Part shown: positions 47,060 through 59,257 of the stretch, one piece after another | Position numbering within the stretch: position 1 is the stretch's first letter | Layout of the letters: every line of letters starts with the position of its first letter | Source: Roseivirga misakiensis | GTDB lineage: Bacteria; Bacteroidota; Bacteroidia; Cytophagales; Cyclobacteriaceae | DNA: 64,000 nt | Reading direction: 5' to 3' | Assembly (NCBI RefSeq): GCF_001747105.1 | Contig: NZ_MDGQ01000003.1 | Span: 1,178,001 to 1,242,000 of the forward strand | Program-made: the position numbers and the translations under genes | Notes under the pieces: generated by a model | The model's database searches: none | Told to the model about the DNA's origin: nothing | The model's input: the letters and a program-made list of their open reading frames with translations, nothing else

Positions 47060-50000
47060 TTATTTCCTCCAATTAGGCAAGTTACCCGGCATTTGGAGCG
47101 CTAGATTGCCTTTGAATTTTTCATCCATTTTCTCAAAATCTTGTCGCAGTGACTTGACTTTAGCAAGGATCGGCGTAAACTCATCGGCAGCAACATCATA
47201 ATTTCTTTTTGATGTACCTGGTACATTAGAAGTTGAACCAAAAGTATCGAATATCGCATTTTGTGCTCTTTGTGCAGTGCTGTACTCAGCATCAATGTCA
47301 AGCCTACCCAGCACTGGGTCTCCATTGATATCCATTCTCACAGAATTCAGTTGCCTTTCAAGCGCCAAGATTTCCTTGAAAAGACTATTAGCTGTTTCAG
47401 CGGGATAAGTCTTGGATGCTGCTTTGTACTGTTGAATCTTGGTGTTCAAATTACGCAAGACACTCTGTGTAGCATTGATGGCATTGACAAGCTTGATGGC
47501 TTTCTTTTTGAAAGCGGCCATTTCTCCCCAATTCTCGGCAGGAATAGTTCGATTATTAAGTTCACTCACTTCGAATTCCACGGGTGGATGAATTTGGCTT
47601 AATTCTCCTTTCACGTTTTTGCTCATGGTGACAGTATAGGTGCCCGGCACCACGAAAATATTAGAAGAAGATAAGCTCTGACTTTGATTGGCTTGTCTTT
47701 CATTTACCTGCCCAAAACTCATGTAAGTCATATCCCATACGACTTGGTTCATGCCCTTGTTTAAGCCTGTTCTCAACTCACTTACAACGTCACCTGCCTG
47801 ATCCTTAATCGTAAATAGCAAGAACGAGGGAAGCTCATCTTGTTCTGCCTTATATGCCTCGACTGTTGGGTAAGGGATGGCGTCATTATTCTTGAAGGCT
47901 TCTCTTTCTTTTTTCTGTCTTTCTGATTTTAAAGACGTGGTTCCTTCTTTGAGCCAGTATTTGATAACGGCTCCTTTTTGAGGGTTAGGGGAGGTGTGAA
48001 ACATTTCACCTTGAAACCCTTTCTGCGGAGAACCAAGACTTCCTAGAGGAGTCCAAGTATTAAACATATAAGCCTTCTTGATATCAAATATATGAGCCTC
48101 TTTTTCAGTGACTTTTTCAGCTAGTTCTCTCAAAGCACTGTAATTGTCCAGTATGTAAAATCCTCTGCCAAAAGAAGCGACGGCCAAATCATTTTCGCGT
48201 TCTTGAATAGCCAGATCCCTTACATTGATCGTTGGTATACCCGATTTCAAAGCTGTCCAGCTGTCCCCACCATTAATGGAAACATGAACACCATACTCTG
48301 TTCCTGCAAATAGGATATCTGCATTTTTATGATCTTGTTCTAAGGCGTATACCGCCCCTTCTGGCAAGTTATTGCTGATGTTTTTCCAACTTTGTCCCTT
48401 ATCATTACTCACATAAACATAAGGGGTAAAATCACCACTTTTGTGGTTATTGAAGGCTGCATAAACAGTGTTAACGTCATATTTGGAAGCAATCAAGTCA
48501 TAGACGTAAGTGTTTTCAGGCACCTCTGGAAATCGATTAATCTGGCGCCAGTTTTTACCATCGTCTTCTGTAATGCTAATTTGTCCATCATCTGAACCGA
48601 CATAGATTAGTCCTGCTTGAAGTCTAGATTCATCTAGTGAAACAGCTGCGCCATATCTTGACGTAGAACCATTTTTTGCCACGGCATCCATTGGCCAAAT
48701 TTTACCCATAACGGGTAGTAGGTTTCGGTCAATATCCTGATCTAACTCACCACTGATCACTTCCCAAGAATCTCCTCGGTCTGTACTTTTAAAGAGCTTA
48801 TTTGCCGCATAGTATAAGGTTTTATGATCATGAGGACTAACCATTAATGGTGCATCCCAGTTGAAATTATAGGCTTTTTCTCCTTTTCTAGGCCTTGGTA
48901 TGATCGCTACACCTTCACCACTTTGTCGATCGAAACGTGTAAGTCCACCATTTTGATACTGAGCATAAACTATGTTATCGTCCACAGGATCAGGAACTGA
49001 TTCAAAACCGTCGCCTCCCTGGGTTACAATCCAATCGCTGCTGACAATACCATGTTGGCTCACTGTTTGAGATGGACCGTGTAAACTATAATTGTCCTGT
49101 GTTCCGCCCATTACATTGTAAAAAGGCTCGGCATTATCCACAGACACTTTGTAAAATTGAGTAACAGGAAGGTTTGTAAAGAACTTCCATGTTTTTCCCT
49201 GGTCAAACGATTCATAAACGCCACCGTCGCAGCCTTGTAATATGTGGTGATTATTATTTGGGTCAATCCACAAGGCGTGGTTATCCCAGTGTTTGCTTTG
49301 CTCTCCAAGGTTGTTGAAAGTTTTTCCACCATCTACTGTGAAAGATGTGAAAGTATTGAGAAGGTAAACTCTGTTTTCATCTACTGGGTCTGCCACAATC
49401 TCTTGGTAGTAGTTACCGCTAGAGGAGGTACCACTCATTTTTTGCCATGATGCTGCACGATTGGTGCTCTTGTAGAAACCCCCTTGTCCGTTTTGTGCTT
49501 CTACAACAGCGTAAATGATTTCTGGGTTGGCAGGAGAGATCGCCATACCAATTCTCCCTTTGTCAACACCTGGTAAACCGCTATTTGCCTTTTCCCAAGT
49601 GGCTCCAGCGTCTTTAGACTTATAAATACCTGACTCTGGCCCGCCGCCAAGGTAGGTCCATTGTCTTCTTCTTCTTTGATGCGCAGTGGCATAAAGGACG
49701 TCAGGGTTTCTTGGATCAATATGAACTTCATTGACACCAGTGTGTTCGCTAATTTCTAATACTTTATCCCATGTTTTACCCCCATCAGTAGTTTTATAAA
49801 GGCCTCTGTCTCCACCGGCACTCCATAGAGGTCCTGTGGCAGCCACATAAACGACATCGGAGTTTCTTGGGTCTATCTTAATCATACCGATATGCTCTGA
49901 CTTTTCTAAGCCAACTTTTTTGAAAGAGGCACCTCCGTTAACGGATTTATAGAGGCCATCGCCATAGGAGACAGATCTTTGGTTGTTATTTTCTCCTGTT

Positions 50001-50368
50001 CCTACCCAAATGACATTCGAGTTATTTGGGTCCATCGCTAGAGAACCGATGGAATAGCTTCCATAATTATCAAAAATAGGCTTGAAAGTGGTTCCGGCAT
50101 TTGTAGTTTTCCAAACACCACCAGCTGCTGCTGCTACATAAAATTCGCTTGAATTATTCGGGTTTACAGCGATATCAGCGATTCGGCCCGACGTTAAGGC
50201 TGGTCCAATGCTTCTAAACTTTAAGCTACCAAGGGAGATACCTTTTAGAGGGTCTACTACTTCAGTCTTGTCTTGCTTTTTGTTTTTCTTTCGCTGTGCC
50301 GATGCCTCATGACCAAATAGAGATAAAATCATAAGGAGGGAAAGGAAGAGGGAATAGTGTTTTTTCAT
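47060..50368 (-). CDS. Large secreted BNR/sortilin-type beta-propeller protein
   Basis: 1102 residues from ATG 50368 (MKKHYSLFLSLLMILSLFGHEASA signal peptide); the frame to 50401 adds a hydrophilic extension. About 750 residues of BNR/Asp-box repeats (SxDxGxTW-like, for example TNAGTTFKPIF, TTDGGKTWDKVL, SKDAGATWEKA, STDRGDSWEVI, SINGGDSWTAL) form one or two propellers. A beta-sandwich and a helical C-terminal region follow. It is related to sortilin/VPS10-type and WD40/YVTN/BNR families often called glycosyl hydrolases, though no sialidase active site is evident. Confidence 0.9.
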   Translation of the reverse strand: MKKHYSLFLSLLMILSLFGHEASAQRKKNKKQDKTEVVDPLKGISLGSLKFRSIGPALTSGRIADIAVNPNNSSEFYVAAAAGGVWKTTNAGTTFKPIFDNYGSYSIGSLAMDPNNSNVIWVGTGENNNQRSVSYGDGLYKSVNGGASFKKVGLEKSEHIGMIKIDPRNSDVVYVAATGPLWSAGGDRGLYKTTDGGKTWDKVLEISEHTGVNEVHIDPRNPDVLYATAHQRRRRQWTYLGGGPESGIYKSKDAGATWEKANSGLPGVDKGRIGMAISPANPEIIYAVVEAQNGQGGFYKSTNRAASWQKMSGTSSSGNYYQEIVADPVDENRVYLLNTFTSFTVDGGKTFNNLGEQSKHWDNHALWIDPNNNHHILQGCDGGVYESFDQGKTWKFFTNLPVTQFYKVSVDNAEPFYNVMGGTQDNYSLHGPSQTVSQHGIVSSDWIVTQGGDGFESVPDPVDDNIVYAQYQNGGLTRFDRQSGEGVAIIPRPRKGEKAYNFNWDAPLMVSPHDHKTLYYAANKLFKSTDRGDSWEVISGELDQDIDRNLLPVMGKIWPMDAVAKNGSTSRYGAAVSLDESRLQAGLIYVGSDDGQISITEDDGKNWRQINRFPEVPENTYVYDLIASKYDVNTVYAAFNNHKSGDFTPYVYVSNDKGQSWKNISNNLPEGAVYALEQDHKNADILFAGTEYGVHVSINGGDSWTALKSGIPTINVRDLAIQERENDLAVASFGRGFYILDNYSALRELAEKVTEKEAHIFDIKKAYMFNTWTPLGSLGSPQKGFQGEMFHTSPNPQKGAVIKYWLKEGTTSLKSERQKKEREAFKNNDAIPYPTVEAYKAEQDELPSFLLFTIKDQAGDVVSELRTGLNKGMNQVVWDMTYMSFGQVNERQANQSQSLSSSNIFVVPGTYTVTMSKNVKGELSQIHPPVEFEVSELNNRTIPAENWGEMAAFKKKAIKLVNAINATQSVLRNLNTKIQQYKAASKTYPAETANSLFKEILALERQLNSVRMDINGDPVLGRLDIDAEYSTAQRAQNAIFDTFGSTSNVPGTSKRNYDVAADEFTPILAKVKSLRQDFEKMDEKFKGNLALQMPGNLPNWRK

Positions 50369-50442
50369 GGCTTTTCTTTTTGACGAAGGAATATAAATCA
50401 AATACTAGAGATTGAGTAATCGTCTTCCGTCAATGGCCATAA

Positions 50443-50569
50443 AAAAAGGGCCAATTTCGAATTTTTGTGACTCGTCTCTTCTCATTTATGAGAAGTTTAG
50501 ATTGGTTCAACAATCTAAAAATTACCTATTCAGGTAATTACGAGACACTTAGCCGAAACAGCCCTTTTT
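50443..50569 (-). ncRNA. Nested inverted-repeat structured RNA element after rng (candidate)
   Basis: Immediately after the rng stop codon lies a 127-nt element. Outer arms 50443-50451/50561-50569 (9 bp), inner arms 50455-50459/50554-50558 (5 bp) and 50467-50475/50540-50548 (9 bp, one mismatch) close three perfect, directly adjacent hairpins: 50478-50495 (7 bp, TTTA loop), 50496-50519 (9 bp, 6-nt loop) and 50520-50539 (8 bp, 4-nt loop). Read on the minus strand it ends in seven Ts. It resembles a four-way junction on a long stem. It may be the rng terminator, an RNase-resistant 3' element or a small RNA; the pairing was done by eye. Confidence 0.6.
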
Positions 50570-50571
50570 CT

Positions 50572-52128
50572 CTATGCTTTCAGTTCTATTTCCTCACCCT
50601 GCTTATTATAGAATGTATAATCAGAGAGCCCGAGGGAACTGTCTTTTTCAATTTTTACCCAGGTATGGAATTTTCTATACCACTGCCACCTTTTTGAGAA
50701 GATGCCTTGTGTAAAATATGCTTGTAAGAAAGGGTGAACAGCAATGGTTACTCCTTTCTCATTTTGAGTACTTAAAATGTATTCCATGTTCTTCTCGATT
50801 TGATCAGAAACAAGGATTGTTGCACTTACTTTACCAGTACCTCCACAAGTAGGGCAAACCTCTCGTGTAGCGATACTCAATTCAGGCCTGACACGCTGAC
50901 GCGTGATTTGCATTAAACCGAATTTTGTAAGTGGGAGTATCGTGTTTTTAGCACGATCTTCAGACATGATTTCACGCATGAATTGATAAAGCTGCTTTTT
51001 GTTTTCAGCTTTTCTCATATCTATGAAATCAATGACGATGATACCGCCCATATCTCGCAACCTGAGTTGACGAGCTACTTCTTTGGCAGCCTCCATATTG
51101 ACCATCATCGCTGTGGCTTCTTGATCTTCGCCAGCATTGGATTTGTTTCCACTGTTGACGTCAATTACGTGAAGCGCTTCAGTATGCTCAATGATCAAAT
51201 AGCCACCTTTCGGTAAACTGACAGATTTGCCAAATAATGACTTCATCTGCTTTTCTATGCCGAATGATTCGAAGATCTTAGCCTTACCATTGTAGAGTTT
51301 GGCTATTTTCTCCTTTTCTGGAGCGATTTTCTGAATGAAGCTTTTTATCTCTTCATGGATTTCCTTGTCGTCTGATACAACACTGTCGAAAGACTCATTT
51401 AAGATATCTCTTAACAAGGAAGAAGCTCTGCTTACCTCACCGATTACCTTATCTCTTGGGTTTAGTTGATGGAGTCTTTTCATTCCATCGATCCAAGTGT
51501 CGTGAAGGTTCCGGAGGTCTTTATCGAGTTCGCCTACGTTTTTTGTTTTCGCAACCGTTCTGATAATTACGCCAAAATTCTCTGGCTTGATAGACGATAT
51601 AAGACGCAATAATCTTTTGCGCTCTTCACCATCCGTTATTTTTTTCGAAACGTTAATAGCATTTGAAAAAGGCACTAAAACCATGTAGCGCCCCGCTATT
51701 GATAACTCACAAGTGAGTCGCGGCCCTTTTGTAGAAATCGGTTCTTTGACAACCTGAACAAGTATCTTTTGTCCCTTTGTCAAGACTTGGCTCATTTTGC
51801 CAAGCTTATTAATGTCATTCTCGTTCTTGAATTTACCTAGGCCACCAGTATTGTGTTTGTTGGTTAGCGCCTGCTTGGTATACTTGTTAAGCGACTTTAT
51901 CTGCGGACCAAGGTCCAAATAATGCAGAAAAGCATCTTTTTCGTATCCAATATCAACGAACGCGGCATTTAAGCCAGGTACAATTTTCTTTACTGTACCA
52001 AGATATATGTCACCGACTTTGAACTTACTTTCATCATTGTCGTGATGAAATTCGACTAAGTTCTTGTTTTTAAGAAGGGCTATACGACATCCACTTTGAG
52101 TTGAATTGATAATTAATTCATTACTCAA
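50572..52128 (-). CDS. rng: Ribonuclease E/G family endoribonuclease
   Basis: 518 residues: S1 RNA-binding region (GDIYLGTVKKIVPGLNAAFVDIG), RNase E/G core with metal-binding Asp in VIDVNSGN and IIVIDFIDM, and the Zn-link CPTCGGTG that joins protomers. It lacks the long E. coli RNase E scaffold tail, so it is RNase G-like. It would process rRNA and decay mRNA. The start codon is TTG (52128). It follows the mS38-like gene by 65 bp across a hairpin and is followed at once by the nested structured element. Confidence 0.96.
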   Translation of the reverse strand: MSNELIINSTQSGCRIALLKNKNLVEFHHDNDESKFKVGDIYLGTVKKIVPGLNAAFVDIGYEKDAFLHYLDLGPQIKSLNKYTKQALTNKHNTGGLGKFKNENDINKLGKMSQVLTKGQKILVQVVKEPISTKGPRLTCELSIAGRYMVLVPFSNAINVSKKITDGEERKRLLRLISSIKPENFGVIIRTVAKTKNVGELDKDLRNLHDTWIDGMKRLHQLNPRDKVIGEVSRASSLLRDILNESFDSVVSDDKEIHEEIKSFIQKIAPEKEKIAKLYNGKAKIFESFGIEKQMKSLFGKSVSLPKGGYLIIEHTEALHVIDVNSGNKSNAGEDQEATAMMVNMEAAKEVARQLRLRDMGGIIVIDFIDMRKAENKKQLYQFMREIMSEDRAKNTILPLTKFGLMQITRQRVRPELSIATREVCPTCGGTGKVSATILVSDQIEKNMEYILSTQNEKGVTIAVHPFLQAYFTQGIFSKRWQWYRKFHTWVKIEKDSSLGLSDYTFYNKQGEEIELKA

Positions 52129-57163: not shown

Positions 57164-59257
57164 ATGTCCTCATTCTTCAACACCAGTATTGAGTTTTTGA
57201 AAGGTGTAGGGCCGCAGAAAGCGGCACTTATTGGGGCTGAATTGTCCCTTTTTACCTACGGAGACTTAGTGCAGCACTACCCTTTTAGGTATGAGGACAG
57301 GACCAAATTCTATAAAGCGACGGAAGTCACTGGCGACCTCCCTTTTGTTCAAATTAAAGGCCGAATCACCAAGTTAGATACCATCGGAGAACTGAGAAAA
57401 AAACGTTTGGTTGCTCGGTTTTCTGATGATACCGGCCATATAGAGCTTGTTTGGTTTAAAGGAATTCCCTGGGTGAGTAAAAAATTGAAACTTGGGGTAG
57501 ATTATGTTGTCTACGGGAAGCCGGCTGCTTTTGGGAGAAAAGTTAATATTGCCCACCCTGAAATTGAGGTATTGACAACTCAAAATGATAAGGCAGCTTT
57601 TCTTCAACCAGTTTATCATACCTCTGAAAAAATGAAGGCTAAATTCTTGGATAGTCGAGCTATGTCCAAGTTAATCAGGCAAGTCATGGTGCTCGCGGAG
57701 CGCCACATCAATGAAACACTTCCACAAAAACTGACCGATCAGTTTAGCCTCATCGAAAAGAAGTTTGCCTTATGGCATATACATTTTCCCTCAAACACGG
57801 AATTACTTCAAAAAGCACAATTCAGACTGAAGTTTGAGGAGCTTTTCTTCATTCAGCTCAGGTTATTGAAGCTTAAAATCTCGAGAATCGATAAGTTTCG
57901 AGGTCAAATTTTCAATGACTCGGCCCTACTTACCTCTTTTTATAACGATCATTTGCCCTTTGATCTAACGAATGCCCAAAAGCGAGTCATTAAGGAAATC
58001 TACTTCGATATGAAGTCAGGAAAACAAATGAATCGCTTATTGCAAGGAGATGTTGGTTCGGGAAAAACGATAGTTGGGTTCATTTGTATGCTTTTGGTGG
58101 TAGGTTCTGGTAGCCAAGCTTCTATGATGGCACCTACGGAGATTTTGGCAGCGCAACACTACGAAGGACTGAAAGAATACGCTGATAAGCTTGGCTTGGG
58201 CATTGCCAAACTGACTGGTTCGACTAAAACGAAAGAACGCCGGATTATTCACGAAGGCCTTCGTTCGGGCGAGATCAAAATTCTTGTCGGTACGCACGCT
58301 TTGATTGAAGACACAGTCCAATTCAAGAATTTAGGCCTAGCGATAATTGATGAGCAACACCGATTTGGTGTCGCACAACGCGCCAAACTTTGGAATAAGA
58401 ATACGTCGGTTTATCCGCACATTCTGGTGATGACCGCAACACCGATTCCAAGAACTCTAGCCATGACGCTCTATGGGGATTTGGATGTTTCAGTGATCGA
58501 TGAAATGCCTGCAGGCCGAAAACCGATCAAAACAATGCATCAGTACGATGCAAAACGACTGGAAGTATTCGGTTTTATGAAGCGAGAAATTGCCAAAGGC
58601 CGACAGATCTATGTGGTATACCCGTTAATTGAAGAATCGTCGAAACTGGACTTGAAAGACCTAATGGACGGCTATGAAAGCATAGCAAGGGCTTTCCCAG
58701 AAAACCATATTAGTATAGTGCATGGCAAAATGAAGCCGAAGGACAAAGATTTTGAGATGCAGCGCTTTGTAAATCACGAAACGCAATTAATGGTGGCTAC
58801 TACTGTGATTGAAGTCGGGGTAAATGTGCCAAATGCCTCTGTTATGGTGATCGAAAATGCAGAACGTTTCGGCTTAGCCCAACTCCATCAGCTTAGGGGT
58901 CGAGTTGGTCGTGGGGCAGATCAGTCATATTGTGTACTTATGACGGATTATAAACTGAGTAAAGAGGCTAGAACGAGGATTGAAACTATGGTCAAAACCA
59001 ATAATGGCTTTGAAATTGCCGATGTGGACTTAAAACTTAGGGGCCCCGGCGATATAACGGGTACCCAGCAAAGTGGTGTTTTAGACCTACTGATCGCTGA
59101 TATAGCTGCTGATAGTAAAATTCTCCAAATTGCCAGAAATGCAGCGAGTGATTTGCTAGATGAAGACCCAGAATTGACAAACCCTGAGAATGCAAATATT
59201 CAAAGGCACATTCAATCTCTAAGAAAAACTACGGTGAACTGGGGTAGAATTTCATAG
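57164..59257 (+). CDS. recG: ATP-dependent DNA helicase RecG
   Basis: 697 residues. The N-terminal wedge OB domain (about 50-150) is followed by an SF2 helicase with Walker A GDVGSGKTIVGF, DEQH box (IIDEQHRFGVAQR), TATPIPRT motif and the C-terminal TRG-like region (LRGRVGRGADQSYC, LRGPGDITGTQQSG). It reverses stalled forks and processes Holliday junctions. It follows gldD by 79 bp and ends seven bases before the convergent DUF5916 gene. Confidence 0.97.
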   Translation: MSSFFNTSIEFLKGVGPQKAALIGAELSLFTYGDLVQHYPFRYEDRTKFYKATEVTGDLPFVQIKGRITKLDTIGELRKKRLVARFSDDTGHIELVWFKGIPWVSKKLKLGVDYVVYGKPAAFGRKVNIAHPEIEVLTTQNDKAAFLQPVYHTSEKMKAKFLDSRAMSKLIRQVMVLAERHINETLPQKLTDQFSLIEKKFALWHIHFPSNTELLQKAQFRLKFEELFFIQLRLLKLKISRIDKFRGQIFNDSALLTSFYNDHLPFDLTNAQKRVIKEIYFDMKSGKQMNRLLQGDVGSGKTIVGFICMLLVVGSGSQASMMAPTEILAAQHYEGLKEYADKLGLGIAKLTGSTKTKERRIIHEGLRSGEIKILVGTHALIEDTVQFKNLGLAIIDEQHRFGVAQRAKLWNKNTSVYPHILVMTATPIPRTLAMTLYGDLDVSVIDEMPAGRKPIKTMHQYDAKRLEVFGFMKREIAKGRQIYVVYPLIEESSKLDLKDLMDGYESIARAFPENHISIVHGKMKPKDKDFEMQRFVNHETQLMVATTVIEVGVNVPNASVMVIENAERFGLAQLHQLRGRVGRGADQSYCVLMTDYKLSKEARTRIETMVKTNNGFEIADVDLKLRGPGDITGTQQSGVLDLLIADIAADSKILQIARNAASDLLDEDPELTNPENANIQRHIQSLRKTTVNWGRIS

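Follow-up and report, generated by a model that had tools for sequence, protein, structure and literature searches.

RNase E/G class enzymes can be autoregulated through structured RNA, as is known for Escherichia coli rne, which carries such RNA at the 5' end of its mRNA, and terminal hairpins are known to protect the 3' ends of mRNAs. Like the E. coli rne leader, the element described here is a structured part of an mRNA that encodes an RNase E/G family enzyme, but it lies at the 3' end, is not conserved and has no sign of regulation. Its closer counterparts are the intrinsic terminators found after rng in other genomes of the genus (Roseivirga): like them, it follows directly after the stop codon, has GC pairs at the base of its stem, pairs an A tract with a T tract and folds on both strands. 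It differs from them in size and shape: it is 129 nt long with three inner hairpins meeting in a four-way junction, whereas its counterparts in 17 relatives of the genus have a single hairpin of 27–36 nt.

We analysed this element in a 64,000-nucleotide stretch of Roseivirga misakiensis DNA (the window), whose numbering is used below. It is most likely the intrinsic (Rho-independent) terminator of rng, in an unusual, branched and lineage-specific form, situated at a joint of an apparent ∼200-kb inversion; it is probably no new class of RNA. The features are as follows.

50443..50569, minus strand: branched (four-way-junction) intrinsic terminator of rng, by fold, arms and position (termination predicted)
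50441..50447, minus strand: T7 tract on the rng strand (complement of 50441–50447), whose inner five T pair with the 5' A tract
50443..50451, minus strand: 3' arm of the outermost stem, GCCCTTTTT on the rng strand, pairing perfectly over 9 bp with 50561–50569
50561..50569, minus strand: 5' arm of the outermost stem, AAAAAGGGC
50455..50459 and 50554..50558, minus strand: second enclosing arm pair, 5 bp
50467..50475 and 50540..50548, minus strand: third enclosing arm pair, 9 with one mismatch
50520..50539, minus strand: inner hairpin 1, 8 bp with a 4-nt loop
50496..50519, minus strand: inner hairpin 2, 9 bp with a 6-nt loop
50478..50495, minus strand: inner hairpin 3, 7–8 bp with a 2–4-nt loop
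50572..52128, minus strand: rng, encoding an RNase E/G family protein of 518 aa (PF10150, TIGR00757), upstream of the terminator
47060..50368, minus strand: gene for a Sortilin/Vps10-domain protein (PF15902), adjoining rng only in this genome among the loci compared
50369..50440, minus strand: upstream region of the Vps10 gene, beginning directly after the T tract and partly alignable with the Vps10 upstream regions of some relatives
G000:C3, 1.028 Mb and 1.228 Mb: the two joints of the apparent inversion

The original prediction described three abutting hairpins inside an interrupted stem that ends in seven T on the rng strand, and both the coordinates and the arms were as described. The stem indeed starts two bases after rng (the stop codon ends at 50572 and the element at 50569), and zero bases separate the three inner hairpins. 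The hairpins had been given as 7, 9 and 8 bp; the 9-bp and 8-bp hairpins stand, while the 7-bp one (inner hairpin 3, 50478–50495) has 8 complementary bases with a 2-nt gap and folds as 7 bp.

By position and composition the element is an intrinsic terminator: a stable hairpin with GC pairs at its base is followed by seven T, just after the end of a gene and in the sense of that gene. Such terminators usually, though not essentially, consist of a single compact hairpin with a short loop; here there are three inner hairpins and outer arms 109 nt apart, so we class the branched form as a variant. A simple terminator scan made no call for the element on the rng strand because it allows loops of 3–8 nt only (on the plus strand it called inner hairpin 3 alone; 1 found, 0.2 expected), and scans limited to short loops assume away long-arm terminators of this kind. 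In the open-access literature we found no paper that names a branched terminator, which is weak evidence of absence.

The fold is well defined. The folding energy is −48.8 kcal/mol on the rng strand (z = −8.5; none of 200 dinucleotide shuffles was as stable) and −46.0 kcal/mol on the plus strand (z = −7.2). When 120 nt of rng and 60 nt of downstream sequence are folded along with the element, pair probabilities are 1.0 for GGGC/GCCC at the stem base, 0.93–1.0 in the hairpin cores, 0.68–0.98 for the end pairs of the hairpins and 0.33–0.94 for the A-U pairs running into the T tract. The element ranks second by z-score and fourth by energy among 1037 windows of 130 nt (those with <40% in long reading frames, from 864 kb of its own genome, the element being added as one; z-scores from 20 shuffles per strand), and second place by z-score is level with plain hairpin terminators. 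Within the window, it has the lowest energy per base on the minus strand among multi-hairpin domains that are at least 70% paired; on the plus strand two overlapping domains at 57166–57303 have a lower energy per base. The structure thus exceeds chance, yet not beyond that of good terminators: what is unusual is the branching, not the amount of structure.

The minimum-energy folds of a growing transcript (in 6-nt steps; equilibrium folds, not kinetics) form the inner hairpins in turn. At prefix 120 the outer stem has yet to appear; at prefix 126, with the GGCCC arm out, it is there. Before it closes, the part preceding the inner hairpins pairs locally or with rng. This timing, with the U tract then in the polymerase, would be what an intrinsic terminator needs. 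The fold and its position suggest how the element may act in the cell. As RNA polymerase moves on from rng, the three short hairpins would fold in succession and bring the two outer arms closer together, allowing AAAAAGGGC to pair with GCCCUUUUU; closure while the polymerase pauses on the U tract would release the transcript. The completed 3' end would in addition protect the mRNA against 3' exonucleases. With 109 nt between them, the arms may be slower to close than those of a compact hairpin, and the terminator might then work less well than a plain 28-nt one. If it terminates well, such a separation is tolerated when inner hairpins shorten the path.

Evidence for a terminator also comes from the relatives. 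The rng gene is present in all 19 genomes of the genus that we searched, and all 19 have a T-tailed hairpin 1–26 nt after it, which fits the specialised terminator listed in the original prediction as one of its alternatives. The hairpin is plain (27–36 nt) in 17 genomes and branched in two, the genome under study and its closest relative, G016: after rng, the position of the hairpin is conserved, and its shape and sequence are not. The plain form is probably ancestral, since three species with 89–91% rng identity have an identical 28-nt hairpin after the gene. The rng of G016 is 94% identical to ours in protein and 83% in DNA, and its terminator (locus L010) resembles ours in having the same position, a long outer stem closed by A and T tracts and more than one inner hairpin; it differs in being 80 nt long, in having two inner hairpins and in facing a porin-like gene. 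Homology of the two branched terminators is unsupported (their local alignment score was reached by 993 of 1000 shuffles). That the closest relative also has a branched rng terminator, yet one that cannot be aligned with ours, is unexplained by the reading we prefer and counts against it.

In the other genera of the family, 60 genomes were searched for rng and 56 matched, giving 57 loci: 31 with single-hairpin calls, 12 with multi-hairpin calls, 13 with none and one without the rng end (not every hairpin call at these loci is a terminator). Two of these 12 would satisfy the thresholds for energy and pairing of the census described below: L175, 27 nt after the rng stop, which is mainly one strong plain hairpin accompanied by a weaker second, and L149, at a distance of 181 nt from the stop. 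The remaining ten have poorer pairing or lower stability.

The census took in closed stems with a T tail, seeded by an exact match of 8 nt and spanning at most about 280 nt, and detected 105 sites in 1.264 Mb of the element's own genome and 56 in 0.84 Mb of G016. With strict criteria for branching (two or more hairpins, ≥70% paired, energy per nt no higher than −0.30 kcal/mol), three of the 161 detected sites are branched: in the own genome the element and a single unit of a tandem array in L213, and in G016 the 3' end of rng. Under looser limits the own genome has four such sites and G016 three. The scan misses terminators, so these rates hold among detected sites only. They are also not independent of the finding itself: the window and the G016 rng stretch were sampled because of it, and the rules were loosened stepwise (a 6-nt arm rule missed the element and a GC filter missed the G016 case) until the final rule, which was tuned to include both known cases. 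The array in L213 (5130–6058; G000:C5:1630130–1631058) has 7.6 copies with a period of 122 bp, and its units contain a ∼71-nt quasi-palindrome.

A 3'-end-derived small RNA, or a structured element stabilizing the rng mRNA, is an unlikely alternative to a terminator; the cloverleaf would then be released or protected, and act in trans or tune the dosage of rng. A very stable, compact fold directly past the stop codon would suit such a role, as would the precedent of E. coli rne, whose autoregulatory structure is at the 5' end. Against it, both fold and sequence are missing from 17 of the 18 other genomes of the genus and the sequence in the remaining one (G016) is unrelated, and no Rfam family matches at gathering cut-offs. 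Conservation of the paired arms in relatives, on which the original prediction had staked its interpretation, was looked at in the genus and is lacking. There is likewise no homologous copy of the element, as a conserved regulatory RNA should have, in 196 genomes of the family (own included) or at the 18 other rng loci of the genus. Of the original interpretation, then, the terminator part fits, and neither the regulatory part nor autoregulation of rng through the element is supported, with neither fold nor sequence conserved in the genus. A role as a small RNA in this single species is possible but unsupported. We found no paper on RNase G autoregulation in Bacteroidetes in the open-access literature (weak evidence). 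In the whole window Rfam gave no match at gathering cut-offs, the only match at E up to 5 having 20.2 bits against a cut-off of 70 bits (E = 0.92). A reading of the cloverleaf as a tRNA or tmRNA was rejected, as ARAGORN found no such gene in the window.

Searches for further copies, which the original prediction had proposed, also bear on whether a mobile palindromic repeat (MITE- or REP-like, or the remnant of an insertion sequence) landed in the rng terminator. The nested inverted repeats with A/T ends look the part, and other palindromic repeats do occur in these genomes (the 122-bp tandem array of the own genome and a repeat with four copies in the G016 sample). A mobile repeat should be present in multiple copies, however, and the element is single-copy in its own genome, where the next-best match is 22 nt long (E = 0.17). 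The 196 family genomes, own included, hold no substantial DNA homologue, only three other matches (20, 42 and 24 nt) at E up to 0.01; distant blastn searches gave no match in plasmids and one 30-nt match in phages (E = 0.1). We therefore consider a mobile origin very unlikely. The G016 repeat (L192, 18449–18583) is a palindromic element of ∼140 nt that looks like a MITE, with 91–100% identity among its four copies in the 840-kb sample. A G016 palindrome suggested an IS-like terminal repeat, GGCTGTYTC, which was rejected: there is no inverted pair within 2.5 kb, although single sites occur (13 in the G000 sample and 10 in the G016 sample). A long nested inverted repeat of G016 (L191, 9404–9542) ends in GAAAGAGGCTGTCTCAAAAG, and its 41-nt inner part recurs in L096 with 90% identity.

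The reading as a branched rng terminator has a second part, which is new here: the element sits at one end of an apparent ∼200-kb inversion, as judged from a comparison of neighbours at the joints only and not of gene order inside the 200 kb. At 11 of the 19 rng loci, among them those of the ten relatives scoring highest for rng, the gene is convergent with one for an outer-membrane beta-barrel (porin-like) protein (PF13568). At 10 of the 17 Vps10 loci in relatives, the Vps10 gene has an S9 peptidase gene upstream, either next to it or beyond a DoxX gene (of the seven loci without an upstream S9 peptidase, one, L044, ends at a contig end; the DoxX gene has no match in the own genome, in a search without a positive control). 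In the own genome, the gene after rng is the Vps10 gene; 200 kb off, on the same contig, the S9 peptidase and porin-like genes point towards each other. Turning the stretch between the two joints around would bring back both arrangements of the relatives, with the strands correct, and G007 shows the arrangement to be expected prior to the inversion: S9 peptidase, Vps10 gene, about 180 kb, porin, then rng facing the porin. Neighbours within the blocks are kept: the Vps10 gene is still followed by a TPR gene, and the porin gene still adjoins one that was judged by eye to be lipoprotein-like.

Both joints contain the 10-mer GGCCCTTTTT, which occurs four times, on either strand, in the 864 kb sampled; one of the four is at the element, carried by the outermost 3' arm (50443–50451) plus the next base. 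The second joint is a plain hairpin, AAAAAAGGGCCTCAAATCAGTGATTTGAGGCCCTTTTT. An identity of 10 bp is short, and GC-then-T arms are common in terminators, which counts against an inversion through GGCCCTTTTT. The sequence downstream of the T tract partly aligns with Vps10 upstream regions (best with G016, G005 and G011; poorly with G007). Since complementarity runs through the whole cloverleaf, one side must have supplied all of it unless it grew later, which would place the joint in or next to the 3' arm and T tract of the terminator. From the observed exchange of gene partners and the common 10-mer we infer a route and its timing: the branched terminator likely stood first between convergent rng and porin genes, and breakage or recombination through GGCCCTTTTT, common to two terminators, would then have flipped the segment, so that the Vps10-domain gene came to lie downstream of rng. 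In G003, G005 and G018, rng and the Vps10 gene are arranged differently again, in order and strand; the region is therefore fluid, and several events may have taken place.

That the palindrome acts at the DNA level, extruding as a cruciform and serving as a recombination or protein-binding site with the inversion as its product, is extremely unlikely: the near-perfect four-way geometry on both strands and the place at an inversion joint would suit it, but the other joint is a plain hairpin, so a branched element is not needed on both sides.

A wider proposal, doubtful as it stands and put forward tentatively, is that terminator palindromes act as inversion joints in the genus: two of them would recombine, the segment would flip, and working terminators would stay at both new joints. 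At the rng terminator, branched forms that change fast would then have arisen in two close species through repeated rearrangement or the growth of hairpins. Pairs of terminators could recombine because each reads nearly alike on both strands and a GC-then-T arm is common to many of them. If inversions are often joined at terminator arms, a simple rule would follow for rearrangements between genes that do not break transcription units. The open-access literature yielded no paper linking transcription terminators with bacterial inversion breakpoints, and none on terminator inverted repeats or microhomology in chromosomal inversion (weak evidence in both cases).

Two minor observations concern the Vps10 and rng genes. 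In G001 (L055), the terminator before the Vps10 gene is about 20 nt longer than the matching stem in G002 and G004; read by eye, the extra ∼20 nt fold as an extension of the same hairpin, not as a branch, and this stem is a possible snapshot of how terminators lengthen. The longest rng frame in the window starts with TTG (52126–52128; MSNELIINST...), and TTG is also the start of the G016 orthologue.
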